Assembly: GCA_012521915.1 (NCBI GenBank)
Contig: JAAYLM010000126.1
Location: 1-36,177, forward strand
Origin: Oscillospiraceae bacterium
Lineage (GTDB): Bacteria > Bacillota > Clostridia > Saccharofermentanales > UBA5734
Reading direction: 5' to 3'
Length of the DNA stretch: 36,177 bases
A program made the position numbers and the translations under genes. Positions within the stretch are counted from its first letter, which is position 1. Each line of letters opens with the position of its first letter. Of the stretch, positions 674 through 14,530 are shown in pieces. The notes under the pieces were generated by a model. The model was not told the origin of the DNA, did no database searches, and saw only the letters and a program-made list of their open reading frames with translations.

Positions 674-1762
674 ATGAACCGTACCGGCAGTGTTATACTT
701 GATCTGGCGCCAAGACCAGATAATCCGCGAAACAGTGAAGGTGCTTTTATCGGGCTTCGTGAGGGTCAGCTGCTCTTCATTTATTCCCGTTTCAACGGAA
801 GCAGCTCGGCAGACAACGCACCGGCCGGCCTGGCCGCCATCCGTTCTTTAGATGGTGGTGAAACCTGGACCAGCGAGCAAATCATCCTCACAGCAGAAGA
901 AGACCGGGCTGAAAATATCATGAGTGTGTCCCTGATCCGCATGAATAACGACGACATCGGCCTGTTCTATTTCATCCGCAGGGATTTTGATCATGGCAAA
1001 GCCTATCTGCGACGTTCCGCTGATGAAGGACAGACCTGGAGCGAGCCGGTTTGCTGCGTGCCCGCCAAAGGCTATTATGTCACCAACAACGACCGTGTTG
1101 GCCGGCTCACTGACGACCGCCTGATTGTCCCCGCGGGTTATCACCGTACCGTCAACCGCCAAAAAGACAGTTTCGCCAGCTGGGATGGCCGCAGCACTAC
1201 GATCTATTTTTATTCTGACGATGACGGTCACACATGGCATGAATCCAACCTCTGCTCGGTCAATGCCCGTTGTACACGCTCCGGTCTGCAGGAACCGGGT
1301 GTCATTGAGCTGAAAAACGGTTCCCTATACGGCTGGGCACGAACCGACCTGGGTGTGCAGTACGAAATGTTTTCAATTGACCGCGGCCGCAGCTGGTCTC
1401 CTCCGCAGCCCTCCCGTTTCACCGCCCCCTGCTCACCTCTTTCCATGAAGCGTGATCCCCTGACCGGTACGCTGATCGCCATCTGGAACCCAATACCTGA
1501 ATACATCACCCGCCGCCGGCAGGCAAAGATCTGGAACGGCGGCCGTACACCGCTGGTCTGCGCGCTCAGCCGTGATGATGGGGAAACCTGGGACGAGCCG
1601 ATTATCCTGGAAGATGACCCGGACAGCGGCTACTGTTATATAGCCATGCATTTTTTAGATGACGATCTTCTGTTGGCATACTGCGCCGGCGGTCCTGCCG
1701 ACGGCGGCTGTCTGAACCGGCTGCGCATCCGCAAGATGCCCAACCCTGCCCGACAAGCCTGA
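674..1762 (+). CDS. Sialidase-fold (BNR/Asp-box) glycosidase-like protein
   Basis: A 362-aa protein with five Asp-box motifs of the SxDxGxTW type, at about residues 58-65 (SLDGGETW), 115-122, 181-188, 234-241 and 299-306. This is the signature of a six-bladed sialidase beta-propeller. The segment QEPGVIEL near 206 resembles the conserved Glu-Pro region of sialidase-superfamily enzymes. There is no signal peptide, so the protein should be cytosolic. The classical FRIP arginine motif of GH33 is not evident (NPRNSEGAFI occupies that place), so true sialic acid hydrolysis is not assured. The start is fixed by a good AGGGAGGAAA site about 6 nt upstream. It is followed after 36 bp by the NagA-type deacetylase, consistent with cleavage or sensing of N-acetylated glycans. 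Confidence 0.8.
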   Translation: MNRTGSVILDLAPRPDNPRNSEGAFIGLREGQLLFIYSRFNGSSSADNAPAGLAAIRSLDGGETWTSEQIILTAEEDRAENIMSVSLIRMNNDDIGLFYFIRRDFDHGKAYLRRSADEGQTWSEPVCCVPAKGYYVTNNDRVGRLTDDRLIVPAGYHRTVNRQKDSFASWDGRSTTIYFYSDDDGHTWHESNLCSVNARCTRSGLQEPGVIELKNGSLYGWARTDLGVQYEMFSIDRGRSWSPPQPSRFTAPCSPLSMKRDPLTGTLIAIWNPIPEYITRRRQAKIWNGGRTPLVCALSRDDGETWDEPIILEDDPDSGYCYIAMHFLDDDLLLAYCAGGPADGGCLNRLRIRKMPNPARQA

Positions 1763-1798
1763 CGATCACAGACAGGAAGATGAAACGGAGGCAGCACC

Positions 1799-2944
1799 AT
1801 GTTAACAGCCATTACTAACGCGAAAGTCGTTCTACCGGAGGGTCTTGTAGACGGATCCATCCTGATGGAAGAGGGCAGGATCCTGGCTGCCGGCCGGGTG
1901 ATCCCACCACAGGACGCGGTCATTCGCGATGCCCGCGGGCAGTATGTCGGCCCCGGCTTTGTCGATATCCACTGTCACGGCGGCGGAACTGCCCTGGGCC
2001 ATGAACAGCCGCTGGAGGCTGCCCGCCATCACCTGGCGCACGGTACCACCTCACTGCTCATCTCTCTCGCTTACAGCCTGACCAAAGACCAGTGGGTTGA
2101 GGGGATTGCCAGAATAAGGCAGGCGATGGCACAACCCGGCACCAGTCTGGCCGGCATTCATTTTGAAGGCCCCTATACCAACCCGCAGTATGGTGCCAGA
2201 AGCCAGCGTGCCTGGCAGATAAGAGAAGAAGACTACCGTTTGTTGTTTTCTCTGGCAGAAGGGCTGGTGCGCCAGTGCACCTATGCGCCGGAAATGCCGG
2301 GTGCCCGTGATTTCGCCCGCTATGTCAAAAGCAGGCAAGTTGCCCTGGCTGCCGGCCACACAGAGATGTCACCTGCGGTTCTGGCAGATGCCGTCACCGA
2401 CGGTGTCACCCTAATCATCCACCTTTTCGACGCGATGGGCTGCCATCTGGGCAGGGAAAGCATTCGTCAGACCGGCGTCCTGCAGGATTCTGCCGCGGAC
2501 GCCGCCCTGGCCCGCACAGACCTGTCCTATGAGCTGATCTGTGACAGTCGTGCGGTTCATGTCAAACCGGCCAACATGCAATTGGCCTACCGGGCCGCAG
2601 GCGCGGACAAGCTCATCCTAATCACCGATGCGACTGTGCAGCCCTACGACCCCGCAGGCTTCCCGGCTGATGACCCGCGCAGCAGCATCGACCTGAACTA
2701 CAACAGCGAAGGCCAATTGAGCGGCAGCCGGCTGACCATGGACCAGGCTTGCCGCAATATGAAGAAATACACCTGTGCCCCTGTTATGGACCTTTTCAAG
2801 ATGGCCGCCGGCAATCCAGCCAGAGCGGTCGGCCTGGACGCCGTTGTGGGGTCACTGGAAGCCGGGAAAGAAGCCAACATCGTTCTTTGTGATGAAGACA
2901 TGAATCTATCGGCTGTTTTTCTGGGCGGAACGCAGGTTCATTGA
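1799..2944 (+). CDS. nagA: N-acetylglucosamine-6-phosphate deacetylase family amidohydrolase
   Basis: A 381-aa metal-dependent amidohydrolase. NagA hydrolyses GlcNAc-6-P to GlcN-6-P and acetate, feeding amino sugars into glycolysis. Visible ligands are the HxH of VDIHCHGGG (His58, His60), Glu123 in HFEGPY, His187 in AAGHT, His208 in IHLFDAM and the catalytic Asp277 in LITDAT. A substrate-binding His254 sits in AVHVKP. Length matches the family. Two departures are the canonical HLYNAM reading HLFDAM (Asn to Asp) and an unusual DSRAVHV in place of DGIHV. The sugar recognised may therefore not be plain GlcNAc-6-P. The start ATG follows AACGGAGGCAGCACC, a good binding site. The operon position between a sialidase-fold protein and a sulfatase supports modified amino-sugar catabolism. 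Confidence 0.82.
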   Translation: MLTAITNAKVVLPEGLVDGSILMEEGRILAAGRVIPPQDAVIRDARGQYVGPGFVDIHCHGGGTALGHEQPLEAARHHLAHGTTSLLISLAYSLTKDQWVEGIARIRQAMAQPGTSLAGIHFEGPYTNPQYGARSQRAWQIREEDYRLLFSLAEGLVRQCTYAPEMPGARDFARYVKSRQVALAAGHTEMSPAVLADAVTDGVTLIIHLFDAMGCHLGRESIRQTGVLQDSAADAALARTDLSYELICDSRAVHVKPANMQLAYRAAGADKLILITDATVQPYDPAGFPADDPRSSIDLNYNSEGQLSGSRLTMDQACRNMKKYTCAPVMDLFKMAAGNPARAVGLDAVVGSLEAGKEANIVLCDEDMNLSAVFLGGTQVH

Positions 2945-3014
2945 ATCTGCCAAATCATCAAAGACATCACCCGATAAGCATCAGGGCACAAAAAATTGAA
3001 AGAGAGGCTGCGCC

Positions 3015-4511
3015 GTGCAAAACCGTCAAATCATCCTGCTGATGACCGATACCCAAAGACATGATATGCTGAGCTGCTACCGTGATACAGGCTTACGTAC
3101 ACCTGAGCTGGATAAACTGGCCGCCAGCGGCCGCCGTTTCACCAAGGCCTACACCACTCAGCCGGTCTGCCAGGCTGCCAGGACTGCCCTGTTCACCGGC
3201 CTCTACCCTCATGAATGCAACGGCTGGACCAATTCATCCGCGCTCGCCGACCATGTTCATCATGTTGGCGAACGCCTGCAACGACATGGCATCCATACCG
3301 CCTATATTGGCAAATGGCATCTTGACGGGGGCGATTATTTCGGTCTCGGCCGCTGTCCGGCCGGCTGGGATCCGGCCTATTGGTTTGACATGCGCACGTA
3401 TCTGGAGAAGATGTCTCCTGAAGACCGGCGGCTCTCGCGCCAGGCAAAGCAGATGGAAAAAATGGACTTCCCTTCTGCCTTCACTTACGCCCACCAGTGC
3501 AGCGATCGTGCGGTTCAGTTTATTGAACAGCACAACCAGGAAGACTTTTTTCTTGTCGTATCCTATGACGAACCCCATGGCCCGTCGATCTCCCCGCCGC
3601 CGTTCTCCCGCATGTATCAGGACTATACCTTCCCCAAATCTGCCAATGTCACCGATTCACTGGCCGGCAAGCCGGAACACCAGCGGATCTGGGCCGGTGA
3701 CCAGCTGGAGAAAGACCTTTCCGGGCTTGAGATCAGATCCCCGGCCTTTTTCGGCTGCAACTCATTCGTCGACCAGCAGATCGGGCGGGTGATCGATGCC
3801 ATCCGGCTACAGGTTCCAGACGCACTGATCATCTATACCTCGGACCACGGTGACTTTCTGCACAGCCACCGCCTGTCCGGCAAAGGGCCTGCCGCCTATG
3901 AGGAAATCACCCACATTCCCCTGATCATGAGCGGACCGGGGCTGGATGCCGGAACGGTTGATACGGCACCCGTCTCCCATATCGACCTGCCTCCAACATT
4001 GTTCGCCCTGATGGGCTTGCCGATTCCCCGGGTGTTCCGGGGTACCAGCCTGCTGCCTCAGCTGACCGGCCAGACCAGCCAGGCCAACGAGCATATTTTC
4101 ATGGAATTTGGCCGCTATGAAGTGGATCATGACGGGTTTGGCGGCTTTCAGCCTTTAAGAGCCACCTATGATGGCCGCTACAAACTGGTGGTCAACTTGC
4201 TGTCCAGCGATGAATTGTATGACCTGGAGCAGGATCCTGACGAACTGGACAACCGCATCAATGACCCCGTCCTGGCCGCTCTGCGCGATCGTCTCCATGA
4301 TGCCATCCTCGACTGGATGAACCGGACACGGGATCCGTTCCGCGGCTATTACTGGGAACAGAGGCCCTGGCGCCAGGATGCGGCCAGGCCAACCTGGTCT
4401 TATACCGGCATGACGCGCCAGCGTGAAGACGAGGACTACGAGCCGCGGCAACTCGACTACGATACCGGCCTGCCCATCACAGAAGCCTCCCGCTCCAAGA
4501 ACCTCTACTAG
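3015..4511 (+). CDS. Sulfatase (arylsulfatase, alkaline phosphatase superfamily)
   Basis: A 498-aa type I sulfatase that hydrolyses sulfate esters. The N-terminus has the metal-binding Asp11 region (LMTDTQRHDML). The formylglycine precursor is Cys52 in CQAARTALFTG, a CxAxR motif instead of the CxPSR usual in aerobic enzymes. Other catalytic residues are Lys100 and His102 (GKWHL), His188 (EPHGP), Asp277-His278 (TSDHGD) and Lys290. No secretion signal is seen, so it probably acts on imported, desulfatable mono- or oligosaccharides. CxAxR in an anaerobe points to maturation by a radical-SAM anSME encoded elsewhere; none lies in this window. The start codon is GTG, preceded by AGAGAGGCTGC. The substrate is not determinable; a 6-sulfated amino sugar fits the NagA neighbour. 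Confidence 0.9.
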   Translation: MQNRQIILLMTDTQRHDMLSCYRDTGLRTPELDKLAASGRRFTKAYTTQPVCQAARTALFTGLYPHECNGWTNSSALADHVHHVGERLQRHGIHTAYIGKWHLDGGDYFGLGRCPAGWDPAYWFDMRTYLEKMSPEDRRLSRQAKQMEKMDFPSAFTYAHQCSDRAVQFIEQHNQEDFFLVVSYDEPHGPSISPPPFSRMYQDYTFPKSANVTDSLAGKPEHQRIWAGDQLEKDLSGLEIRSPAFFGCNSFVDQQIGRVIDAIRLQVPDALIIYTSDHGDFLHSHRLSGKGPAAYEEITHIPLIMSGPGLDAGTVDTAPVSHIDLPPTLFALMGLPIPRVFRGTSLLPQLTGQTSQANEHIFMEFGRYEVDHDGFGGFQPLRATYDGRYKLVVNLLSSDELYDLEQDPDELDNRINDPVLAALRDRLHDAILDWMNRTRDPFRGYYWEQRPWRQDAARPTWSYTGMTRQREDEDYEPRQLDYDTGLPITEASRSKNLY

Positions 4512-4578
4512 AAGGATCTGCCCACCGCGTGCAGACTCTTCTAGAGGCTATTTCGGAGCAATCCTGGAAAGGTCATTC

Positions 4579-5211
4579 ATGTTTGAAGCGATCATCTTTG
4601 ATTTCGACGGTACACTGGCCGATACCGGCCATATCATGCAAGATGTTTTACAGGTTCTCTGCCGGAAATATGGCCTGCCCGAGCCGGATCAGGCACAAAT
4701 TGAAAAACTGCGCGGCCGTTCTCTGATGGAACGTCTGCGCTATTTCAACATGCCGCTGCACCGTCTCCCCCTCCTGACACAGGAGGCATTGTCCCTTTAT
4801 AGCAAACAGATCGGGACAGCAAGTCCCTTTCCCGGTGTTCGATCTCTGCTGGCTGAGCTGGATCACCTTAACATCAACAGGGCGATACTTTCCTCAAACA
4901 GCGCGGCCACCATTCGCCTGTTTCTCGATGGGCATGACCTGAACGGTTTTTCTATGATCAAAGGACACGCACCGATTTTCGACAAGCACCGGACTTTACA
5001 CCGCATGCTGCGCAAGCTGGATACGGACCGGCAGAAAATCCTGTATGTCGGCGATGAATTAAGGGATATCGAAGCCTGCCGCAAAATCAGCCTGCCTGTT
5101 GCTGCCGTGTCCTGGGGCTACGATCACCGGGCCTTGCTCGCTGACGGCCAGCCGGATTATCTGATTGACCGGCCTGACCAGCTGAGAGAACTGCTCACCC
5201 GAAGGCATTAA
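4579..5211 (+). CDS. HAD-superfamily hydrolase (phosphoglycolate phosphatase-like)
   Basis: A 210-aa HAD phosphatase with all four motifs: DFDGT (Asp8, Asp10), motif II SSN (Ser105-Ser106), a motif III lysine (Lys136 in DKHRTL) and GDELRD (Asp159, Asp163). A helical cap follows motif I, as in subfamily IA (phosphoglycolate or sugar-phosphate phosphatases). The ORF track opens at 4423, but that extension overlaps the sulfatase out of frame. The homologous start is the internal ATG at 4579, preceded by TGGAAAGG. It is the last gene of the rightward operon and ends before a hairpin terminator. The substrate is unknown; a sugar phosphate from the same pathway is the natural guess. Confidence 0.85.
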   Translation: MFEAIIFDFDGTLADTGHIMQDVLQVLCRKYGLPEPDQAQIEKLRGRSLMERLRYFNMPLHRLPLLTQEALSLYSKQIGTASPFPGVRSLLAELDHLNINRAILSSNSAATIRLFLDGHDLNGFSMIKGHAPIFDKHRTLHRMLRKLDTDRQKILYVGDELRDIEACRKISLPVAAVSWGYDHRALLADGQPDYLIDRPDQLRELLTRRH

Positions 5212-6030: not shown

Positions 6031-6125
6031 ATGGCGTTTTCAGATTGCGCCGGTCCGGCCGGCATGATAGGATGAAGGCTGTTGGCAGAAAAGATATGCC
6101 GGATATCGGACATAGTGAGGACAAA

Positions 6126-6983
6126 ATGGTTTTGAACGAAAACATAGCGACATCACCATCCCTCTGGCAACAGTTGCTGGAGCCGGTCGGCCAATTGCTC
6201 CGCCAGGCCGGCCGCCTGATTCTGGACAGCAGCCAGACAAGGCTGCAGGTGGAAAAAAAGAGCGCGGATAATTATGTCACGGACATTGATCTTGCTGTGC
6301 AAAAATACATGCTTGCCAGGCTGGCTGAATGGACACCTGCCTGGCCGGTCATCGCGGAAGAAAGCGCGACCGGACGACAGGAGCTGACCGGACAGACTTG
6401 GATTCTTGATCCTGTGGACGGTACCACCAACCTGATGCGTGCCTATCACCATTCCGCAATTTCCCTGGCACTGGCCGATGAGAACCGGCTGTTGCTCGGT
6501 TTTGTTTACAATCCCTATACCGATGAATTGTTCACAGCTGTCGCTGGCGGCGGTGCCCACCTGAATGGCTTGCCGATTCAAACATCACGGCATTCTAAGC
6601 TGCGTGACTGCCTCGTCGGTTTCGGTACCACACCTTACGACCGCGCCAACGCGCATCTGACCTTTTCGCTCGCGGAAAATATTTTTATGCAGACACTGGA
6701 GATCCGGCGTTCCGGGTCAGCAGCCCTTGACCTTGCTTATGTTGCCTGCGGCCGCCTTGACGCGTTTTTCGAGCTTTGCCTGCAGCCATGGGACTATGCC
6801 GCCGGCAGCCTGATCCTGCAGGAAGCCGGAGGGCAAGTAACCAACTGGCAGGGGAATGCCCCCAGCCTGCAACAGGGCGACAGCATTCTGGCCACCAACA
6901 AGCTGGTCCACCAGGCGTTGCTCGACCTGGTCGGAAACACTGCCGGAGCAGCGGTAGTGCGTGTTCAGCCGCAGGAGCTTTAA
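6126..6983 (+). CDS. Inositol monophosphatase family protein (SuhB-like)
   Basis: A 285-aa Mg-dependent phosphatase of the IMPase/FBPase/CysQ superfamily. Metal-binding signatures are AEES (Glu78/79), WILDPVDGTTN (Asp95, Asp98) and WDYAAG (Asp223). This set is typical of inositol-1-phosphatases, but the family also contains enzymes for fructose-1,6-bisphosphate, PAP and histidinol phosphate. The ORF track starts at 6045. I prefer the ATG at 6126, preceded by GTGAGGACAAA; the extra N-terminal residues resemble no family member. The downstream MFS gene starts 2 nt after the stop, so the two are translationally linked and a polyol- or sugar-phosphate route is possible. Confidence 0.85.
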   Translation: MVLNENIATSPSLWQQLLEPVGQLLRQAGRLILDSSQTRLQVEKKSADNYVTDIDLAVQKYMLARLAEWTPAWPVIAEESATGRQELTGQTWILDPVDGTTNLMRAYHHSAISLALADENRLLLGFVYNPYTDELFTAVAGGGAHLNGLPIQTSRHSKLRDCLVGFGTTPYDRANAHLTFSLAENIFMQTLEIRRSGSAALDLAYVACGRLDAFFELCLQPWDYAAGSLILQEAGGQVTNWQGNAPSLQQGDSILATNKLVHQALLDLVGNTAGAAVVRVQPQEL

Positions 6984-6984
6984 T

Positions 6985-8262
6985 ATGGCGCCCGCCTCCT
7001 ATCGCCGCACAACAATCGCCTGTTTCACCGGTATCTTCGTGCAGGCCATTGTGACCAATCTCACAGCCATCCTTTTTGTCCCGCTGATGGGGCTATATGG
7101 TTTACAGTATGGCCAGCTCGGGATCCTGGTCGGTGTCAATTTCACCGCACAGGTCAGTGCGGACATCCTTTTCAGCGGAGCCATTGATCGTTTCGGTTAC
7201 CGGCGCATCATCCTGCCGGCCAGCCTGACAGCAGGCCTGGGGCTAGTCCTGTTCGCCCTGACACCCTGGCTGTTCCCCGGTCGCGAATTCAGCGGCATGC
7301 TGCTGGCAACAGTGCTCTTTTCATTCGCGGCCGGCTTGCACGAAATCATGCTTAGCCCGATTATCGCCGCGATCCCGAGCGCTGACAAAAGTCTGGCCAT
7401 GAGCCTGATGCATTCCTTTTATGCCTGGGGCCAGGTGGCGACCATAATCCTGACAACCCTTTTCCTTTTCCTGGTGCCGTATCGTTTCTGGCCGTTTATC
7501 GTGCTGTTCTGGGCCCTGGTTCCGCTGTTGGATTTTTTACTGTTTGTCGGTTCTCCTTTTCCAGATGTTGTGGCGGTTGAGCACCGGCTCAACATGAAGG
7601 ATTTACTGTTCCAGCCTTTCTACTTATTGGCCTTGCTGGCGATTTTTGCTGGTGCCGGCGCGGAAATAGTCATGAACCAGTGGGCTTCGACCTTCGCCGA
7701 AGTCGCACTGTCCCTTCCTAAGCTGACAGGGGATCTGCTCGGCATGTGTTTGTTTGCAGCCATGATCGGCGTCGGCCGTCTTCTGCACGGCCGCTTTGGC
7801 TCCGGTGTCAACATGAACAAGCTTCTGACCGGCAGCTCAGTGTTGGCGGCCATTCTTTACCTGGTCGTAGCTCTTTCTCCTTTTAACGTGGTGAGCCTGA
7901 TAGCCTGCGCGCTTTGCGGCCTGGCAGTAGCCTTGCTTTGGCCGGGTACTCTGGTCATCTGCGCAGACCGGTATCCGTTAGCCGGTGCCTGGATGTTCGC
8001 CATCCTGGCTGCGGCTGGTGACATCGGCGCGGCTTTCGCGCCCTGGCTGACCGGGCGGGTTGTGGAACAGTCGCTCCAGGCCAGATCTGTGGCTACTTTC
8101 GCTGGCCTTTACAACATAACCCAGGAACAGGCAGCGATTCGCATGGGTCTGCTGGCAGCGATCATTTTCCCACTGGCTGCCGTAGGCATCCACCTGGCAT
8201 TGCTTAAGCTTTCACCGTCAAAACAGCGACCCGTAATAAAACAACACATGAAAGTGCAATAA
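6985..8262 (+). CDS. MFS transporter
   Basis: A 425-aa integral membrane protein with about 12 hydrophobic segments in two halves and a central cytoplasmic loop near residues 190-200 (HRLNMKD). The loop after TM2 carries DRFGYRR, the MFS A-loop pattern (GxLaDrxGrrr). Family members move sugars, acids or drugs with H+ or Na+. The ORF track begins with a GTG at 6961 inside the phosphatase gene. The ATG at 6985 has an AGGAG site 8 nt upstream and avoids the overlap. It is the second gene of a phosphatase-MFS pair, with the CobW gene 78 bp beyond. The substrate cannot be read from the sequence; the pair suggests uptake and dephosphorylation of a polyol or sugar. Confidence 0.85.
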   Translation: MAPASYRRTTIACFTGIFVQAIVTNLTAILFVPLMGLYGLQYGQLGILVGVNFTAQVSADILFSGAIDRFGYRRIILPASLTAGLGLVLFALTPWLFPGREFSGMLLATVLFSFAAGLHEIMLSPIIAAIPSADKSLAMSLMHSFYAWGQVATIILTTLFLFLVPYRFWPFIVLFWALVPLLDFLLFVGSPFPDVVAVEHRLNMKDLLFQPFYLLALLAIFAGAGAEIVMNQWASTFAEVALSLPKLTGDLLGMCLFAAMIGVGRLLHGRFGSGVNMNKLLTGSSVLAAILYLVVALSPFNVVSLIACALCGLAVALLWPGTLVICADRYPLAGAWMFAILAAAGDIGAAFAPWLTGRVVEQSLQARSVATFAGLYNITQEQAAIRMGLLAAIIFPLAAVGIHLALLKLSPSKQRPVIKQHMKVQ

Positions 8263-8340
8263 ATAGGCATAAGATTCAAGAAAAACTTGCAGTGCCGTTG
8301 TATGCTGAAAACAACAAAACGATCGGGAAAGGGTGATCGT

Positions 8341-9291
8341 ATGGGCAAGACAACCATCATGCTGATAACCGGCTTTCTGGGAGCCGGTAAGACAACGGTG
8401 CTGAACCACCTGCTTCAGCAACTCCCGGCAGGTGACCAGGAAAACGGCCAACCGCTAAAAGTCGGCGTTGTAGTCAATGAATTCGGCAAAGCCAGTATTG
8501 ACGCTCCTTTTCTGGCCGGTCAGGGCTACCAGGTGACAGAGCTGAACAACGGATCGATTTTCTGCCAGTGCCTCGCCGCCACCTTTATTGACACCATGGC
8601 GCATTTGCTGAGCTTTGACCTGGATTATCTGCTGATCGAAGGATCCGGCCTGGCCGACCCGGCCGGTATGAACACCAGGATGGATCGGCTCAAGCAAAAA
8701 ACAGAACGCCCCTACCGCTATGCAGGGTCAATCTGCGTGATTGACGCTCTGTATTACCGCAAATTGAGCCAAAGCCTGGAAACCATCAATCGCCAGATCC
8801 TGGCGTCTACCCTGATTGTGATCAACAAAGCCGATCTCGTCGATCCGGCAACCCTTGCTGAAGTCTCACAGAATGTCAGCAAGCGCAATCCACTGGCAGA
8901 GGTGGTGACCGTCAGTCATGGGCAACTGGATCCGGCTTATTTGGCCAGGCTGCGTAAATCCCGTCTGGCGCGCCGGCTAACTTCGTTGAACACGCCGGGC
9001 GGCCGACCGGAAACACTGCTGCTTCTGACAGATGATGTGCTGGAGGCAAAGCGCCTCGCGGCTTTTTCCGCCCGGATCATAACGCAGGCCTATCGTGTCA
9101 AGGGAATGGTACGCCTTGCCGAAGGGCTTTTCCGTCTGGATGCCGTTGGTCAGGATTTCTCGCTGACACCGCTGCCGATCAGCAGCGGCCGCTCTGAAAT
9201 TGTGGTTATCGCCTATCCAGGCGAGCACCTGCGCGAGCGTGTGGCCGAACTGGCCAGAGATATCCTGCAAGTCGAGGCCGAACTCGCTTGA
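8341..9291 (+). CDS. CobW/P47K-type (COG0523) GTPase with altered metal motif
   Basis: A 316-aa P-loop GTPase of the G3E group that includes CobW, UreG, HypB and MeaB. Visible parts are Walker A GFLGAGKTT (11-19), VVNEFGKASID (45-54), IEGSG (99-103), the guanine motif NKAD (162-165) and a C-terminal CobW_C-like region. The CxCC metal-binding site that defines most COG0523 metallochaperones is replaced by GSIFCQC (71-77). I associate this variant with CobW-like proteins near corrinoid methyltransferase systems, but only from memory. The ATG at 8341 follows GGGAAAGGGTG and gives the usual TTIMLITGFLG opening; the track start at 8287 adds unrelated residues. The gene is convergent with the Fe-S/cysteate-synthase operon, whose last stop is 6 bp away. 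Confidence 0.85.
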   Translation: MGKTTIMLITGFLGAGKTTVLNHLLQQLPAGDQENGQPLKVGVVVNEFGKASIDAPFLAGQGYQVTELNNGSIFCQCLAATFIDTMAHLLSFDLDYLLIEGSGLADPAGMNTRMDRLKQKTERPYRYAGSICVIDALYYRKLSQSLETINRQILASTLIVINKADLVDPATLAEVSQNVSKRNPLAEVVTVSHGQLDPAYLARLRKSRLARRLTSLNTPGGRPETLLLLTDDVLEAKRLAAFSARIITQAYRVKGMVRLAEGLFRLDAVGQDFSLTPLPISSGRSEIVVIAYPGEHLRERVAELARDILQVEAELA

Positions 9292-9297
9292 GCCGGT

Positions 9298-10035
9298 CTA
9301 TCTGCTTTCGGCATCATCTTTTTCCAGGTCTGCCGTGATCCTGCCGGACAGGTCAGAAAGCAGTGCCACAATCTGGCCGGTCTGCCATTTTTCCTGTTGT
9401 CCAGACGTCAAAAAAGCACCCAGACCGGCCACCACCTGCGCTTTGTGCCATACAGGCACCGCGATGGCAACACGATTATCCGGGCGTGAAAGAACGACAA
9501 ACCTCTTTTGCTTGATTTCCTGAAGATAGCGTCTGAAATCATCATAACTGGCAAACCGTCTGGGCAAGCCATAGTATTCCAGAATCTCATCCTGCTTGTG
9601 TCCTGGTTCATAGCTGAGCAGGATAAGACCCGTCGATGAGTTCATCACAGCGGCATTGGGACTGGCCTGCATGATGACTTCACCCCGGTCGCTGATCTCC
9701 ATGATGGTGTGCCGGACATGGTTGCGCAGAACAGACAAAGACAGGTACAGCTGATGCTTAAGCGCCGAAGCTGTAATGTGCTGGTGGGCAGCGACCAGCA
9801 ATTCGCGCCGGTACAGGTCACTGTGTGTCAGCGTGGTGGCCATGATCCCCAAGCGGTAGCCCCGCACCGGATCTTTCTGCAGATAGCCTGCTTCTGTCAG
9901 TGTTTTGACAATGCCGGCCACCGTTGATGGTTTCTCCTGCAGCTGGCCAGCCAGTTCGGAAAGACGTACCGGCTGGCCGCCATGCGTAGAAACCATTTCC
10001 AAAATGCGCAAACCTTTGATCATGACTTTTATCAT
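9298..10035 (-). CDS. IclR-family transcriptional regulator
   Basis: A 245-aa regulator with an N-terminal winged helix-turn-helix (about residues 5-66: GLRILEMVS...RLSELAGQLQ...STVAGIVKTL...YRLG) and a C-terminal IclR effector domain (about 75-245). Members bind 14-16 bp palindromes as dimers or tetramers and respond to small organic acids or sugars. The start ATG has a CAGGAG site 9 nt upstream. It is the last gene of a leftward operon and begins 25 bp after the PLP enzyme, so it is probably autoregulatory. The perfect TTCGACA-T-TGTCGAA palindrome at the operon promoter is its best candidate operator. The effector is unknown. Confidence 0.9.
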   Translation of the reverse strand: MIKVMIKGLRILEMVSTHGGQPVRLSELAGQLQEKPSTVAGIVKTLTEAGYLQKDPVRGYRLGIMATTLTHSDLYRRELLVAAHQHITASALKHQLYLSLSVLRNHVRHTIMEISDRGEVIMQASPNAAVMNSSTGLILLSYEPGHKQDEILEYYGLPRRFASYDDFRRYLQEIKQKRFVVLSRPDNRVAIAVPVWHKAQVVAGLGAFLTSGQQEKWQTGQIVALLSDLSGRITADLEKDDAESR

Positions 10036-10060: not shown

Positions 10061-11362
10061 TCAGGACGTCAGCGATGCCAGAATTTCCTGGCGGGTTTGC
10101 GCCAGCATTCCGGCCAGCTGCGCCTGGTCAATATCATCCGGATCAATCAGCAGATCCGCTATGACCGGCTGCGGGTTCAGATCCTTTTTGATGTTCAACC
10201 GTCCGCCGCCCGTTACATTCAGCATGATCACAGCCTGGCGGTTGATGAGCTTCTTCTCGCAGGCCTCAATCAGGGACGCCAGCGCAACGCCGGCTTCGGG
10301 ACACACATCACAGCCTTCGCTCGCAGCAAAAAGGTCCCTGGCCTGAGCCAGTGCCGTGTTATCGACGGCATACACGTGTCCGCCTGCTGCGCTCAGCGCA
10401 TCGAACAGACCCCCGGTTAACCCGTAGGGCGGCTTGCGGTTAGCCAGCACTTTGGCATCGATCGCCTGGCTCAGCCTGCGGGCTTCTGTTGTGTCCATCG
10501 GCGCGATCTCACGACGCCTGGTCTGCCATGCCTGGAAAATTGGTAAAAACGGGCTGTTCTGGGAAAGATGCAGCTGCATCAGTTTATGACCATACCGCCC
10601 GTCCCCAAGCAGCCGGAGATTAGCTTCATGAGCGGCGATCGCTCCGGTTCCGCTACCGATCGCCTGAAAATAGCAATCCGGTATCTGACCTATGGTAGTC
10701 GCGGCAGATAAAAGCGTTGTCCCCATCCCGTCACGCCGGGCGATGTTCCTGGCCCCGCCTTCCGCTTTGAAACCTTGCAGTACGCTGACCTTGTCTGAAA
10801 TCTGGATGGCGTCAAAGTAGTCGCTGTCTCCCGCTGCAGCCACAATACGCACCCACGGCTGCAATGGTTTTTCCTGCCAGAGCTCATTAAGTGATGATTG
10901 GGGCACCACAACCACCAGCGGTACACGGTTTTCTGAAGCGACTTTCAAAAAAGCGCGCGCTGTATTGCCGGCTGACGCGACCACCAGGACTTCTTGACTG
11001 TCCTGCGGATAGCGGGCGCAAACCGTGTAGGCTTCACATTCTTTGAAGCTTCCGGTTGTCATGAAGGCACCCCTGGCAGGCCAATAACCAGAAAAGGTGA
11101 TGTACAGGTTCTCCAGTCCGAGAACAGAAGCCAGGCGCTCGCTTCGGAAAGTCACCGGATAACCGGCAGAAGGCAGGACACGACTGACCGGCAGCCAGTC
11201 GGCGAAACGAAAGAGGCCGGGCTGTTCCGGACGGATATTGAGCTGGCTGGCCTGATACTCCGCACGTAACAGTGCCGGCCCGGCAGCGGCTGGGTTTACC
11301 AGGATAAAGCCGTCATCAACAAGGATCTGGCTGGTTTCCAGGCAGCGGATACGATAACGCAT
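10061..11362 (-). CDS. Cysteate synthase-like PLP-dependent enzyme
   Basis: A 433-aa fold-type II PLP enzyme, related to threonine synthase. Lys107 in TGSFKECEA is the Schiff-base lysine; SAGNT (130-134) and GSGTG (236-240) bind phosphate and cofactor. From memory it closely resembles archaeal cysteate synthase, which makes L-cysteate from O-phosphoserine and sulfite for coenzyme M synthesis. The shared stretches are LLRAEY, FRFADWLPV, FSGYWPARGA, EGGARNIARRDGMGT, GSGTGAIAAHEANLRL and NRKPPYGLTGGLYDAL-type sequences. The N-terminal zinc-ribbon cysteines often found in these enzymes are mostly absent (only Cys7). The start has GGAGGA 7 nt upstream. It lies downstream of three Fe-S proteins in one operon. 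The alternative is an unassigned threonine-synthase-like lyase; the family is firm, the exact reaction inferred. Confidence 0.75.
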   Translation of the reverse strand: MRYRIRCLETSQILVDDGFILVNPAAAGPALLRAEYQASQLNIRPEQPGLFRFADWLPVSRVLPSAGYPVTFRSERLASVLGLENLYITFSGYWPARGAFMTTGSFKECEAYTVCARYPQDSQEVLVVASAGNTARAFLKVASENRVPLVVVVPQSSLNELWQEKPLQPWVRIVAAAGDSDYFDAIQISDKVSVLQGFKAEGGARNIARRDGMGTTLLSAATTIGQIPDCYFQAIGSGTGAIAAHEANLRLLGDGRYGHKLMQLHLSQNSPFLPIFQAWQTRRREIAPMDTTEARRLSQAIDAKVLANRKPPYGLTGGLFDALSAAGGHVYAVDNTALAQARDLFAASEGCDVCPEAGVALASLIEACEKKLINRQAVIMLNVTGGGRLNIKKDLNPQPVIADLLIDPDDIDQAQLAGMLAQTRQEILASLTS

Positions 11363-11425
11363 AGCGGTCCTCCGATGCGTGTATGCGGGCAGCCGGACGG
11401 CTGCCCGCGTCAGGTGACAGTAAAA

Positions 11426-12271
11426 TCAGATTAGATCACCACGTCTGTTTTTCTTCCAGGGTTCTTTAACTCGAAAAGTGTTTTTCATGCTGCCGATACC
11501 TCGTGCCTCCAGGGCAGCTAGGCAGGTCCGGTTGCACACCGCCGCGAAGCGGTCCGGTTTGCCGCTCGGATGCAGCCGGTTAGCCATGCCGCCATTCGGG
11601 CATTTCTTGCACATCTCAAAATTAATCTCAGCCATGACAAACGTCTTGCCGCAGATTGTGCGGGTGACTTTCTTTTCCGTGCTGATCGCCTGTAAAGGGC
11701 ATGCGCTGACACAGGCGCCGCACTGGTCGCAGACCGTCTGGTCCAGCAATGGATCCGACATCAGGGGGGCATCGGTGATGATCATCTGGAAGCGCTGGCG
11801 ATGACCAAATTCAGGGGTTAACACATCCTGATTGAGACCTAGTTCACCGAGGCCGCAGGCTACAGCCGCGTAATCAAAGTCCGGTGTGACATTCGCAGCC
11901 GGACGTCCTTCAGCCACCGGCACGCCCATGGCCGTTGTCGAAGTCGGATTAGGGAAGATGGGGCAGGCTTCCCATCCGGCGTTCTCGATAAAACGGACCA
12001 GGTCATAGGTGACCTGAGCGACAAACTGATTATCCAGCCAGGTGTAGCCAAAATTACTGTAGCTGTTGATGTTGGTGCCCTCTTCGACACCACGCAGTGT
12101 ACCGCGTGGGATCATCTGGCCGATCAGGATCACCGTATGCCCCTCAGGGAAAATACTGAACGGATTATACTGTGGGTCCAGATCTGCGAAACGCTCTTTT
12201 TCGGCAAAACCAATCAGATCGATTTTCAGCTCCTGGGCCTTATCCTTTATTTCTTGCTTAAATGCGTTCAT
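11426..12271 (-). CDS. QueG/RdhA-like double [4Fe-4S] protein, paralog A
   Basis: A 281-aa cytosolic protein of the COG1600-like group, which shares its core with epoxyqueuosine reductase and reductive dehalogenase. The N-terminus (IKDKAQELKIDLIGFAEKERF) and the GLGELGLNQDVLTPEFG segment (141-156) match the region that cradles the corrinoid in those enzymes. The first cluster is CDQCGACVSACP (Cys181, 184, 187, 191). Candidate second-cluster ligands are Cys221, Cys224, Cys246 and Cys250. There is no Tat signal, unlike respiratory dehalogenases. It closely parallels paralog C (13398-14237), including the CNRTC motif. An AAGGAGG site precedes the start. The likely role is low-potential electron transfer or reductive chemistry; the substrate is unknown. 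Confidence 0.75.
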   Translation of the reverse strand: MNAFKQEIKDKAQELKIDLIGFAEKERFADLDPQYNPFSIFPEGHTVILIGQMIPRGTLRGVEEGTNINSYSNFGYTWLDNQFVAQVTYDLVRFIENAGWEACPIFPNPTSTTAMGVPVAEGRPAANVTPDFDYAAVACGLGELGLNQDVLTPEFGHRQRFQMIITDAPLMSDPLLDQTVCDQCGACVSACPLQAISTEKKVTRTICGKTFVMAEINFEMCKKCPNGGMANRLHPSGKPDRFAAVCNRTCLAALEARGIGSMKNTFRVKEPWKKNRRGDLI

Positions 12272-12297
12272 GCCATGCCTCCTTTGTCAGATAACGG

Positions 12298-13401
12298 TCA
12301 GTATTCATTTTCCCGCATTGCCGGATCGCGTTTATCCAGATAGGCTTCACGCCAGGGATTGATGCGCCCGACTTTTTCCTTTTGCTGCCAGGGAAGCATC
12401 CACAGTTTGCGCTTGTACAGCGGGTTTTTGAACAAATTCTTGATCGCTTTGCGTTTCTCCAGAGCGTCCATGCAGCTGCAGATGCAGCCGCGCGCACCGC
12501 AGAGGGCAAAATAGCCGACATGGCTCAACACATATTTGTAGTAGTGGATGATTGCGTTGTCCGGCTGGTCATAAACTGAACCCCAGGTGGCCAGAGCCAT
12601 GGTGTAGGTAAGGCGGTAAGCCTCTTCCTCAGTACCATTCATGTTCTGCACGTCCAGTTCCAGATTAGGCAGGTCCTTTTTCAAGAAGGGCGATATACGG
12701 TTGTTAAGACCGTGGTGCGTCAGGGTGCAGCGGCCCATGTCGACATCACCCCAGTGGATATCAACGCCACCCACATTGATGTGTATGTCTTTGTCTTCTG
12801 TTTTGGCCGGTGGGATCGCATTGCCGGGACAGTCAATGACACAACGTCCACATTGGTTACAAAGCGTCCCGGGCTGAATGATGGGATCCGGATCAAGTTC
12901 AGCGTCCGTCATGATCATGCCCAGGCGGACACGTGGCCCGAATTCCGGCGTCATGAAGACTTTGCCATGGCCCATCTCACCCAATCCCGCGCCGACGGCC
13001 ATGATGCGCACACTCATGGCCACATTGGGCAGACGGCCGGGCACGACTGGTTCTCCTTCGCCCATCCGTTCACTGACCGCCGGGTAATGCGGGATGGCTT
13101 CCCAGCCCATGTCTTCGATAAAACAGGACAAGGCATAGGTCAGCTTCGGGCGGAAAAGTGTATTGAGGCGATTGTAAGAATAAAAAGTGTAGTTATGCCA
13201 GTGGGTCCCTTCGATGATGCCGCGATAAGAACCACGGGGAATCCGCATGGCCAACATGATGATTGATTTGCATTCTGGAAAATAGTTCTTCGGGTTCATC
13301 AACGGAGGCGCTTCCTTGTAACGATCGATATTGCCGATGGCAATACAGTCAATACCCAGTTCTTTCGCCTTGTCTTTGATCATTTGCGATGTCAGTTTCA
13401 T
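12298..13401 (-). CDS. QueG/RdhA-like double [4Fe-4S] protein, paralog B (long form)
   Basis: A 367-aa homologue of the flanking two Fe-S proteins, but about 85 residues longer. It keeps the same N-terminal start (IKDKAKELGIDCIAIGNIDRY) and the core GAGLGEMGHGKVFMTPEFG (137-155). The first cluster is CNQCGRCVIDCP (Cys181, 184, 187, 191). Its second Cys cluster differs: a C-terminal CGARGCICSCMDALE (Cys301, 306, 308, 310) replaces the CxxC...CNRTC arrangement. The insert between the clusters (about 200-300) is rich in His, Trp and Asp, including DIHWGDVDMG. The start codon overlaps the upstream stop in an ATGA arrangement, so the two are translationally coupled, and GGAGGG precedes it. It is probably a catalytic partner or distinct subunit. 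The reaction is unknown. Confidence 0.75.
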   Translation of the reverse strand: MKLTSQMIKDKAKELGIDCIAIGNIDRYKEAPPLMNPKNYFPECKSIIMLAMRIPRGSYRGIIEGTHWHNYTFYSYNRLNTLFRPKLTYALSCFIEDMGWEAIPHYPAVSERMGEGEPVVPGRLPNVAMSVRIMAVGAGLGEMGHGKVFMTPEFGPRVRLGMIMTDAELDPDPIIQPGTLCNQCGRCVIDCPGNAIPPAKTEDKDIHINVGGVDIHWGDVDMGRCTLTHHGLNNRISPFLKKDLPNLELDVQNMNGTEEEAYRLTYTMALATWGSVYDQPDNAIIHYYKYVLSHVGYFALCGARGCICSCMDALEKRKAIKNLFKNPLYKRKLWMLPWQQKEKVGRINPWREAYLDKRDPAMRENEY

Positions 13402-14237
13402 TGGCGCCCTCCTTCGACGATTTCTACAGCTTCGCCGAACTCGTTTTTACCCCATGCCTGTCGTTTGCGGAAGCGCGCCTCAAACGTGTTGCTCAACACA
13501 CCGGCCTGCTCCAGTTCGTCCACACAGGTCCTGTTGCAGAGTGCCGCCAGACGATCCACACCATTCGGTCCGTTGACGGCTCCATTTTTGCAGATGGCGC
13601 ATTGTTGCTCATCGCGAGCGGCAACCTGCATGGTTTTGCCGCAGATACTGATGTTATAAGCCTTTTCCATATCCAAAGCCTGCAGGGGACAGATGCTGAC
13701 GCAGCGGCCGCAGCGTGTGCAGACCGGCTGGTCCAGCAAAGGGTCTGCCGGCAGACTGGCTTCAGTCAGAATCATGATAAAGCGCTGGCGGGGACCAAAA
13801 CGCGGCGTCAGAATTTCTCCGCTCAGACCGATCTCACCCAGACCGCAGGCAACTGCGGCATAGTTGAAATCAGGCTGAACCGTCCGGGCTACTCCGGAGA
13901 CTGAAACCTGCTTTTCCGGAACCAGCGGCATCGCCTCATAACCGCTGCGCTCAATAAAGGTCACTAATTCATATGCGGACTGGGCCAGAAACTCGTCAGC
14001 CAGCCAGCTTTTGCCAAAACTACCGTAATCGCCGAAATTGATGCCTTCTTCAACACCACGCAGACTGCCACGGGTGACGCGCCTGGCGATCATAATGACC
14101 GTCTGGGCAGCAGGGAACAGGGAAAACGGGTTTTTCTCTGCACTCAGACCGTCAAAGCGGTCACGCCCGGCAAAACCGATCATGTCGACCAGGGCAGTTT
14201 TGGCGGCTTGGCGGATCTCCTCCTTGAATTGAAGCAT
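13398..14237 (-). CDS. QueG/RdhA-like double [4Fe-4S] protein, paralog C
   Basis: A 279-aa protein, the first gene of the leftward operon. It has the same architecture as paralog A: an N-terminal alpha/beta region (IRQAAKTALVDMIGFAGRDRF), the core GLGEIGLSGEILTPRFG (132-148), the first cluster CTRCGRCVSICP (Cys173, 176, 179, 183), and further cysteines at 213, 216, 234 and 238 (CAIC, CNRTC). The binding site GAGGAGGAG is very strong. Both A and C carry RGSLRGVEEG- or RGTLRGVEEG-type sequences near residue 56 and lie on either side of the longer paralog B, which suggests a duplication and a multi-subunit complex. The promoter with an IclR-type palindrome lies about 100 nt upstream. The function is not known. 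Confidence 0.75.
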   Translation of the reverse strand: MLQFKEEIRQAAKTALVDMIGFAGRDRFDGLSAEKNPFSLFPAAQTVIMIARRVTRGSLRGVEEGINFGDYGSFGKSWLADEFLAQSAYELVTFIERSGYEAMPLVPEKQVSVSGVARTVQPDFNYAAVACGLGEIGLSGEILTPRFGPRQRFIMILTEASLPADPLLDQPVCTRCGRCVSICPLQALDMEKAYNISICGKTMQVAARDEQQCAICKNGAVNGPNGVDRLAALCNRTCVDELEQAGVLSNTFEARFRKRQAWGKNEFGEAVEIVEGGRQ

Positions 14238-14333
14238 AGACTCCTCCTCTCACGGGACAAAACATTGCTCAATGGACTTTTGCTTGAATTGAATTTTGCG
14301 GATCTTAAGCACCGCAGACAGAAGATGATAATG

Positions 14334-14348
14334 TTCGACATTGTCGAA
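14334..14348. promoter_or_regulatory. 15-bp palindromic operator (candidate IclR site)
   Basis: TTCGACA-T-TGTCGAA is perfectly symmetric, with 7-bp arms around one central base. It lies immediately downstream of the -10 of the Fe-S operon promoter, where a bound repressor would block initiation. The operon encodes an IclR regulator, and IclR proteins bind palindromes of this size. A related half-site (GGACAAT) lies at 14356-14362. Confidence 0.65.
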
Positions 14349-14377
14349 TATGTATGGACAATATTTCTCTATGTCAA
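14349..14377 (-). promoter_or_regulatory. Promoter of the Fe-S / cysteate synthase-like operon
   Basis: On the minus strand there is a perfect TTGACA -35 (14377-14372), a 17-nt spacer and TACATA (14354-14349) as the -10; CATATT slightly downstream is an alternative. The leader to the paralog C start codon is about 100 nt. The -10 abuts the 15-bp palindrome. I see no other feature in the 335-bp gap 14238-14572 except the terminator at 14492-14530. Confidence 0.65.
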
Positions 14378-14491
14378 ACAACCAACATTGTAAAACAGGA
14401 TGCCGCTTTCGTCAACAAAGTTAAGGACAAAAAGCGCGCGGATGCGGAAGACAGTAATTGAACCGGACATCCTGATTAATCATCTCCTAAA

Positions 14492-14530
14492 AAACGAACC
14501 TGCCACCGTTTACAGATGGCAGGTTCGTTT
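14492..14530 (-). terminator. Intrinsic terminator of the two-gene Gfo/Idh operon
   Basis: A perfect 14-bp stem (AAACGAACCTGCCA, 14492-14505, with TGGCAGGTTCGTTT, 14517-14530) and an 11-nt loop. On the minus strand it ends in a T run (TTTT). It lies about 43 nt beyond the stop of the Gfo/Idh gene at 14573 and insulates the next promoter. Confidence 0.85.

Follow-up and report, generated by a model that had tools for sequence, protein, structure and literature searches.

A cysteate synthase gene joined in one operon to three RdhA-like iron-sulfur protein genes in an Oscillospiraceae bacterium

The DNA analysed here, referred to as the window, is the 36,177-nucleotide contig JAAYLM010000126.1 of an uncultured, anaerobic Oscillospiraceae bacterium (assembly GCA_012521915.1). 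It carries a five-gene unit on its minus strand. Read from 5' to 3', the unit encodes a short, a long and a second short iron-sulfur (Fe-S) protein (short2, long1 and short1), all related to the reductive dehalogenase RdhA, followed by a pyridoxal phosphate (PLP) enzyme of the cysteate synthase family and an IclR-family regulator. The first two genes overlap (-4 bp), and the following gaps measure 26, 63 and 25 bp. A previous reading of the letters alone (the sequence-only reading) had described this operon with gaps of -4 to 63 bp, which was confirmed by re-reading the open reading frames. Within its interval, 10061-14377, positions 14238-14377 are non-coding DNA upstream of short2. The unit is a new arrangement of known families, and the grouping points to a sulfur-handling pathway that seemingly has not yet been described.

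The PLP enzyme is solidly assigned by its sequence, at the family level, as a cysteate synthase. In a profile search, it scores 480.8 bits against TIGR03844 (curated cut-off 324.9), and the top threonine synthase model reaches 66 bits. The solved cysteate synthase of PDB entry 9k3c is matched with an E-value of 6e-138 and 53% identity. A tree was built from the window enzyme, ten other cysteate synthases and eight threonine-synthase-like proteins, with no archaeal sequence included. The two groups are split with a support of 100/100, and the window enzyme stands with the cysteate synthases. Of the 125 columns that do not vary among eight other cysteate synthases, it keeps 117, and 67 of these 117 kept residues are never present in the threonine synthases compared. 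Profile score, tree and family-specific residues thus rule out a threonine synthase, and the earlier identification as a cysteate-synthase-type enzyme holds.

Cysteate synthase converts O-phosphoserine and sulfite to L-cysteate and phosphate, and in some methanogens (Methanosarcina) it opens the route to coenzyme M (CoM). The bacterial enzyme has a known role in sulfonolipid synthesis (PMC11211663). This bacterial role of the family was missing from the sequence-only reading, although its hallmarks are not seen here. Compared with known cysteate synthases, the window enzyme has RdhA-like Fe-S proteins and an IclR regulator as neighbours, and not CoM genes or a sulfonolipid acyltransferase.

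The three Fe-S proteins are cytoplasmic paralogues, short1 being 51% identical to short2 and 38% to long1. The motif CxxCxxCxxxCP is invariant in all three, along with further conserved cysteines, in agreement with the previous description of three double [4Fe-4S] proteins, one long and two short. Their scores are 52.3, 53.9 and 44.1 bits against the RdhA model TIGR02486 (cut-off 160.35) and 31.7, 38.1 and 24.5 bits against the QueG model TIGR00276 (cut-off 200). By these profiles, they are neither QueG nor canonical RdhA as defined, and are distant homologues of both. A profile of 23 relatives matched RdhA and QueG structures with E-values of 4e-19 to 5e-10, aligning mainly over the central region through the first Fe-S motif. 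Foldseek searches with AlphaFold models of long1 and short1 returned QueG, PceA and NpRdhA, in that order; the models were built from the three window paralogues only and are poor (predicted local distance difference test, pLDDT, 45), so that these matches lend weak support. No named family for these proteins was found in the literature searched.

In PceA, Tyr246, Asn272 and Arg305 sit together over the corrin, and the Tyr-Arg pair is implicated in proton transfer; QueG has the Tyr, an Asp in place of the Asn, and no Arg (PMC4646009, PMC5500849). Alignment to PceA places all three residues in long1 and short1, with the Asn standing, ungapped, 13 residues before GLG, and at the same positions short2 has lost the Tyr and the Asn and kept the Arg (Table 1). 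The term "QueG/RdhA-type" of the sequence-only reading is thus backed by the RdhA triad in two of the three copies, but the homology is distant and lies below both cut-offs. The active-site Tyr is kept in 16/16 long forms examined, whereas most short partners carry another residue there; the long form therefore resembles a catalytic subunit of the RdhA type, and the short form often looks like a degenerate partner. Judged by its residues, short1 is an exception among the short forms, with the complete triad. In the window, long1 is likely the catalytic subunit and short2 likely a partner subunit.

With RdhA proteins (PceA, NpRdhA), the window proteins have in common the nitroreductase-like N-terminal part and the double [4Fe-4S] part, according to the profile and fold searches, as well as the Tyr-Asn-Arg set of long1 and short1. 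They differ in their size (279-367 aa) and in forming a gene triplet with a degenerate member. They also differ in the absence of a twin-arginine translocation (Tat) signal, the three N-termini (MNAFKQEIKD, MKLTSQMIKD and MLQFKEEIRQ) containing no twin Arg by eye, and of an rdhB-like membrane-anchor gene adjoining the operon. QueG belongs to the same superfamily and cytoplasmic size class and is the best fold-search match. In comparison, however, the short forms stop after the Fe-S part, which leaves no room for HEAT repeats, and the RdhA-type Arg that QueG is without (PMC4646009) is present.

The neighbourhood is not unique to the window. In two metagenome-assembled genomes (MAGs) of sister species of the same genus (contigs G002:C210 and G004:C328), a truncated short2-like gene is followed by long1, short1, short3, long2 and the cysteate synthase gene, in this order. 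In a third sister species (G003:C252), the Fe-S trio short2, long1 and short1 is present, and the contig ends 127 bp past short1. The cluster is not a matter of chance, since the gene order is kept in the two sister-species MAGs. The linkage of Fe-S genes and synthase has also lasted, as indicated by the sister-species synthases being only 64-70% identical to that of the window. The synthase was found in no other genome of the family, in none of the phylum sample beside G000, and in only one other (G406) among 391 genomes of the class sample. In a tree of the Fe-S proteins, the short and long forms fall on separate branches (support 88/88 and 74/73), and the tree shows that the genus multiplied them inside the operon.

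Where the sulfite for the synthase would come from was approached through the genes of the genus and through other sulfur settings. APS (adenosine 5'-phosphosulfate) reductase and PAPS (3'-phosphoadenosine 5'-phosphosulfate) reductase were rejected as the sulfite source, being absent from the five genus genomes; AprA (NF005331) was above its cut-off in 0/5, and the CysD/CysH domain PF01507 was found in 0/5, with 14/14 controls positive, in a search that did not extend to Sat (PF01747), sulfite reductase or sulfite uptake. In G406, a genome of another family of the class, the cysteate synthase gene overlaps an APS reductase alpha gene by 4 bp (locus L096, G406:C50, 4981-8301). The alpha subunit scores 849 bits (cut-off 557), and the next gene encodes a ferredoxin that resembles AprB weakly; a PF01507 protein is also found in this genome. 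The pairing is apparently a sulfate-to-cysteate operon with a ready sulfite supply, and no description of such a synthase-APS reductase operon was found. As in the window, the same synthase (52% identity) is there joined to a redox enzyme, in this case one able to supply sulfite. The partner differs, consisting of AprA and the AprB-like ferredoxin, and the G406 contig contains no RdhA-like protein.

A second setting was seen in five genomes of other families (L141-L144 and L146), where a single Fe-S relative directly adjoins a CysK-type cysteine synthase. These loci also carry, in varying sets, an ATP-binding cassette (ABC) transporter with an SsuA-like binding protein, a corrinoid protein, MtaA-type methyltransferases, a RACo/AcsV-type activator, homocysteine synthase and a NifH-like protein. 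They appear to be corrinoid-linked sulfur assimilation clusters. In these clusters, as in the window, the gene for a PLP beta-replacement enzyme directly adjoins that for a related RdhA-like Fe-S protein, and the clusters add corrinoids to this pattern. They differ in having CysK, a single Fe-S protein of another clade, the ABC transporter and corrinoid methyltransferases, and they offer only an analogy, because their Fe-S relatives form a clade of their own (support 99/98). B12-binding proteins are present in 5/5 genus genomes, so that corrinoids are probably used in the genus. The suggestion of carbon-sulfur chemistry with a corrinoid link, made from the sequence at the outset, gains from the relatives located beside CysK, corrinoid-protein and methyltransferase genes, but the corrinoid use itself is plausible and unproven.

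We propose, with a probability of roughly 40%, that the locus is a regulated cysteate module in which RdhA-type reductases release sulfite and cysteate synthase traps it on phosphoserine. Long1, and also short1, would be cobamide-dependent reductases receiving low-potential electrons via their Fe-S clusters, and short2 would be a structural or electron-transfer partner. The Fe-S complex would cleave the C-S bond of an organosulfonate or a similar compound (R-SO3- + 2e- + H+ -> R-H + sulfite), a desulfonation that would be the counterpart of reductive dehalogenation. The released sulfite would then be captured by cysteate synthase on O-phosphoserine, under the IclR-type regulator. The Fe-S set may in this way provide the sulfite supply that the genus otherwise seems to miss. 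The proposal starts from the gene content and its conservation, the synthase family, the active-site residues and the lack of the genes that normally supply sulfite or make CoM, all read from sequence. From these, we infer the cobamide and its binding by the window Fe-S proteins, the electron path, the substrate and the direction of the Fe-S chemistry.

Several points weigh against this proposal. To our knowledge, enzymatic reductive desulfonation has not been described for this superfamily. A cobalamin riboswitch was found in none of the five genus genomes, which weakens the cobamide step, and the structure models of long1 and short1 are of the low quality given above. The separate clade of the CysK-side relatives means that their context may not transfer. 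The nearest system outside the genus, a LacI-short-long set in G104 (L135), includes neither a sulfur gene nor a cysteate synthase. The genus has 12-25 QueG/RdhA-like Fe-S matches per genome, most of them away from the cysteate synthase. The survey of other sulfite sources covered AprA and PF01507. Finally, all genus genomes are fragmented MAGs (for G000, completeness is 94% and contamination 7%, over 538 contigs), so that a gene counts as absent only as far as these assemblies go.

The main rival, which we regard as rather unlikely, reverses the order of events. The Fe-S proteins would act after cysteate synthase, reducing cysteate or a derivative toward a sulfonated metabolite or cofactor, with sulfite drawn from the surroundings or from the breakdown of organosulfonates elsewhere. 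Within the operon, cysteate synthase alone is recognisable as a carbon-building enzyme, and a known consumer of cysteate was not found (ComD is absent and no SulA-type Lys is present). QueG also illustrates that the superfamily can act on biosynthetic intermediates (PMC4646009). However, the operon contains no ligase, transferase, decarboxylase or further biosynthetic gene, and the location of Fe-S relatives beside the sulfur-capturing CysK is a pattern more like supply than consumption.

The association might instead be loose, the short-long-short set being a general reductive module for an unrelated substrate and the synthase merely sharing its promoter in part of the genus. Short-long pairs or short-long-short sets without an adjacent synthase recur within the genus as well as in three other families, and for this reason the Fe-S set probably came first, the synthase having been added to one copy. 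The rarity of the synthase in the class fits as well, as does G001, of the same genus, in which neither the Fe-S cluster nor a cysteate synthase was found. This explanation is nevertheless unlikely, as the cluster is kept together in three species despite the divergence of their synthases, and the linkage was not broken when, in G002 and G004, a second short-long set was inserted downstream of short1 and ahead of the synthase gene.

Sulfonolipid (capnine) synthesis, in which the cysteate would go to a cysteate acyltransferase, as in Bacteroidota and a Paenibacillus locus, is very improbable, even though it is the known bacterial role of the synthase (PMC11211663). In Paenibacillus (L004), the gene after that of the synthase encodes an acyltransferase that carries the SulA-type Lys (FAKSLP). 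SulA is distinguished by Lys281 (PMC9304779), and the genus does carry an Spt-like alpha-oxoamine synthase (AOS). Its motif, FSASIPP, has however an Ala, the Spt type, at the SulA-distinguishing position, and the enzyme is also present in G001, which is without cysteate synthase. Sulfonolipid synthesis was rejected on these two counts. Moreover, the operon holds no acyltransferase, and its Fe-S proteins would be left unexplained. As an observation of its own, this serine-palmitoyltransferase-like AOS (L097 3457-4704, G000:C208; 519 bits against a cut-off of 640), present in 5/5 genus genomes, hints at sphingolipid-like lipids in the lineage.

Synthesis of CoM or a CoM-like cofactor, a product considered in the sequence-only reading, would begin with cysteate synthase as in some methanogens and proceed through sulfopyruvate and sulfoacetaldehyde, and is rejected as highly improbable, as the sulfopyruvate decarboxylase alpha subunit ComD (TIGR03845) is in 0/5 genus genomes, with control methanogens positive, and RdhA-like proteins have no part in the route.

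The two well-studied lines of the RdhA/QueG superfamily remove halogens or epoxide oxygen. A sulfur-linked branch, if true, would widen the known B12/Fe-S reductase chemistry and could explain how sulfonates are opened anaerobically without oxygen or glycyl radicals. It is doubtful that the proposed module stands for a whole new class of cytoplasmic cobamide-dependent reductive desulfonases, with RdhA-like heteromers using low-potential electrons to cut carbon-sulfonate bonds and passing sulfite to a PLP enzyme. If this were true, anaerobes without sulfate assimilation would gain a way to make cysteate from sulfonates of their environment by transsulfonation. The operon represents a third genomic setting for a bacterial cysteate synthase, besides sulfonolipids and the APS reductase pairing of G406. 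Since it lies in organisms that show no sulfate assimilation, the question of where the sulfite originates can be tested directly.

Two features mark where the unit begins, the terminator of the preceding Gfo/Idh gene and a promoter-like site (Table 1). Promoter-like matches are no commoner than expected by chance, so that this site describes the anatomy and is not proof. The perfect palindrome downstream of it, a candidate operator, has a chance expectation of 0.17 (at 2 mismatches). In the sister locus L072 (G003), short2 is likewise preceded by a terminator, by a TTGACA-17-TAAAAT site and by an imperfect palindrome; an exact copy of the window palindrome was not found there. No riboswitch or other RNA was found 5' of the operon in the window. 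At L072, a NamZ exo-muramidase gene (3159-4322) separates the Gfo/Idh genes from the Fe-S operon; the window lacks it at this place.

Table 1. Positions of the features of the five-gene unit, its control region and a recurrent neighbour of long-form genes. Residues are those at the PceA Tyr246/Asn272/Arg305 positions.
Feature	Position	Strand	Description
short2	13398-14237	minus	279 aa, double [4Fe-4S] RdhA-like; Lys76/Thr/Arg152
long1	12298-13401	minus	367 aa, double [4Fe-4S] RdhA-like; Tyr76/Asn/Arg159; 4 bp overlap with short2
short1	11426-12271	minus	281 aa, double [4Fe-4S] RdhA-like; Tyr76/Asn/Arg160
Cysteate synthase	10061-11362	minus	433 aa, PLP fold type II, TIGR03844
IclR-family regulator	9298-10035	minus	final gene of the unit
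Promoter-like site TTGACG-17-TACAAT	14387-14415	minus	5' of short2; 10/12 match
Palindrome TTCGACA-A-TGTCGAA	14334-14348		perfect, 15 bp; between promoter-like site and short2; candidate operator
Intrinsic terminator	14490-14529	minus	of the preceding Gfo/Idh gene; 13-bp stem, 11-nt loop, T run
KFAVGYQ... protein	L075 3645-4679, L080 9646-10680, L081 443-1465, L088 2550-3584, L137 5916-6947		~343 aa

In G000, G002 and G004, QueG/RdhA-like genes often stand in pairs or triplets close to genes for Gfo/Idh, TIM-barrel and GH4 proteins; among the relatives sampled, most have a single such Fe-S protein or lack it. Within the genus, and also in G129 from another family, a protein of about 343 aa (KFAVGYQ...) directly adjoins a long-form Fe-S gene. 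The two members scanned (L075 and L137) matched nothing in Pfam or NCBIfam. At L083 (G002:C195, 6659-10007), a 723-aa glycyl radical enzyme lies beside an enolase-superfamily protein, and a convergent long-type Fe-S gene adjoins this pair. The top NCBIfam matches of the glycyl radical enzyme are PFL2-3 and sulfopropanediol dehydratase, far under the cut-offs.

On the plus strand of the window, genes for an inositol monophosphatase (IMPase)-family phosphatase, a major facilitator superfamily (MFS) transporter and a CobW-type GTPase (6045-9291) are convergent with the operon. Further upstream on the same strand, a sialidase-type BNR protein, an amidohydrolase, a sulfatase and a HAD hydrolase are encoded in a row (674-5211), possibly for glycan use.

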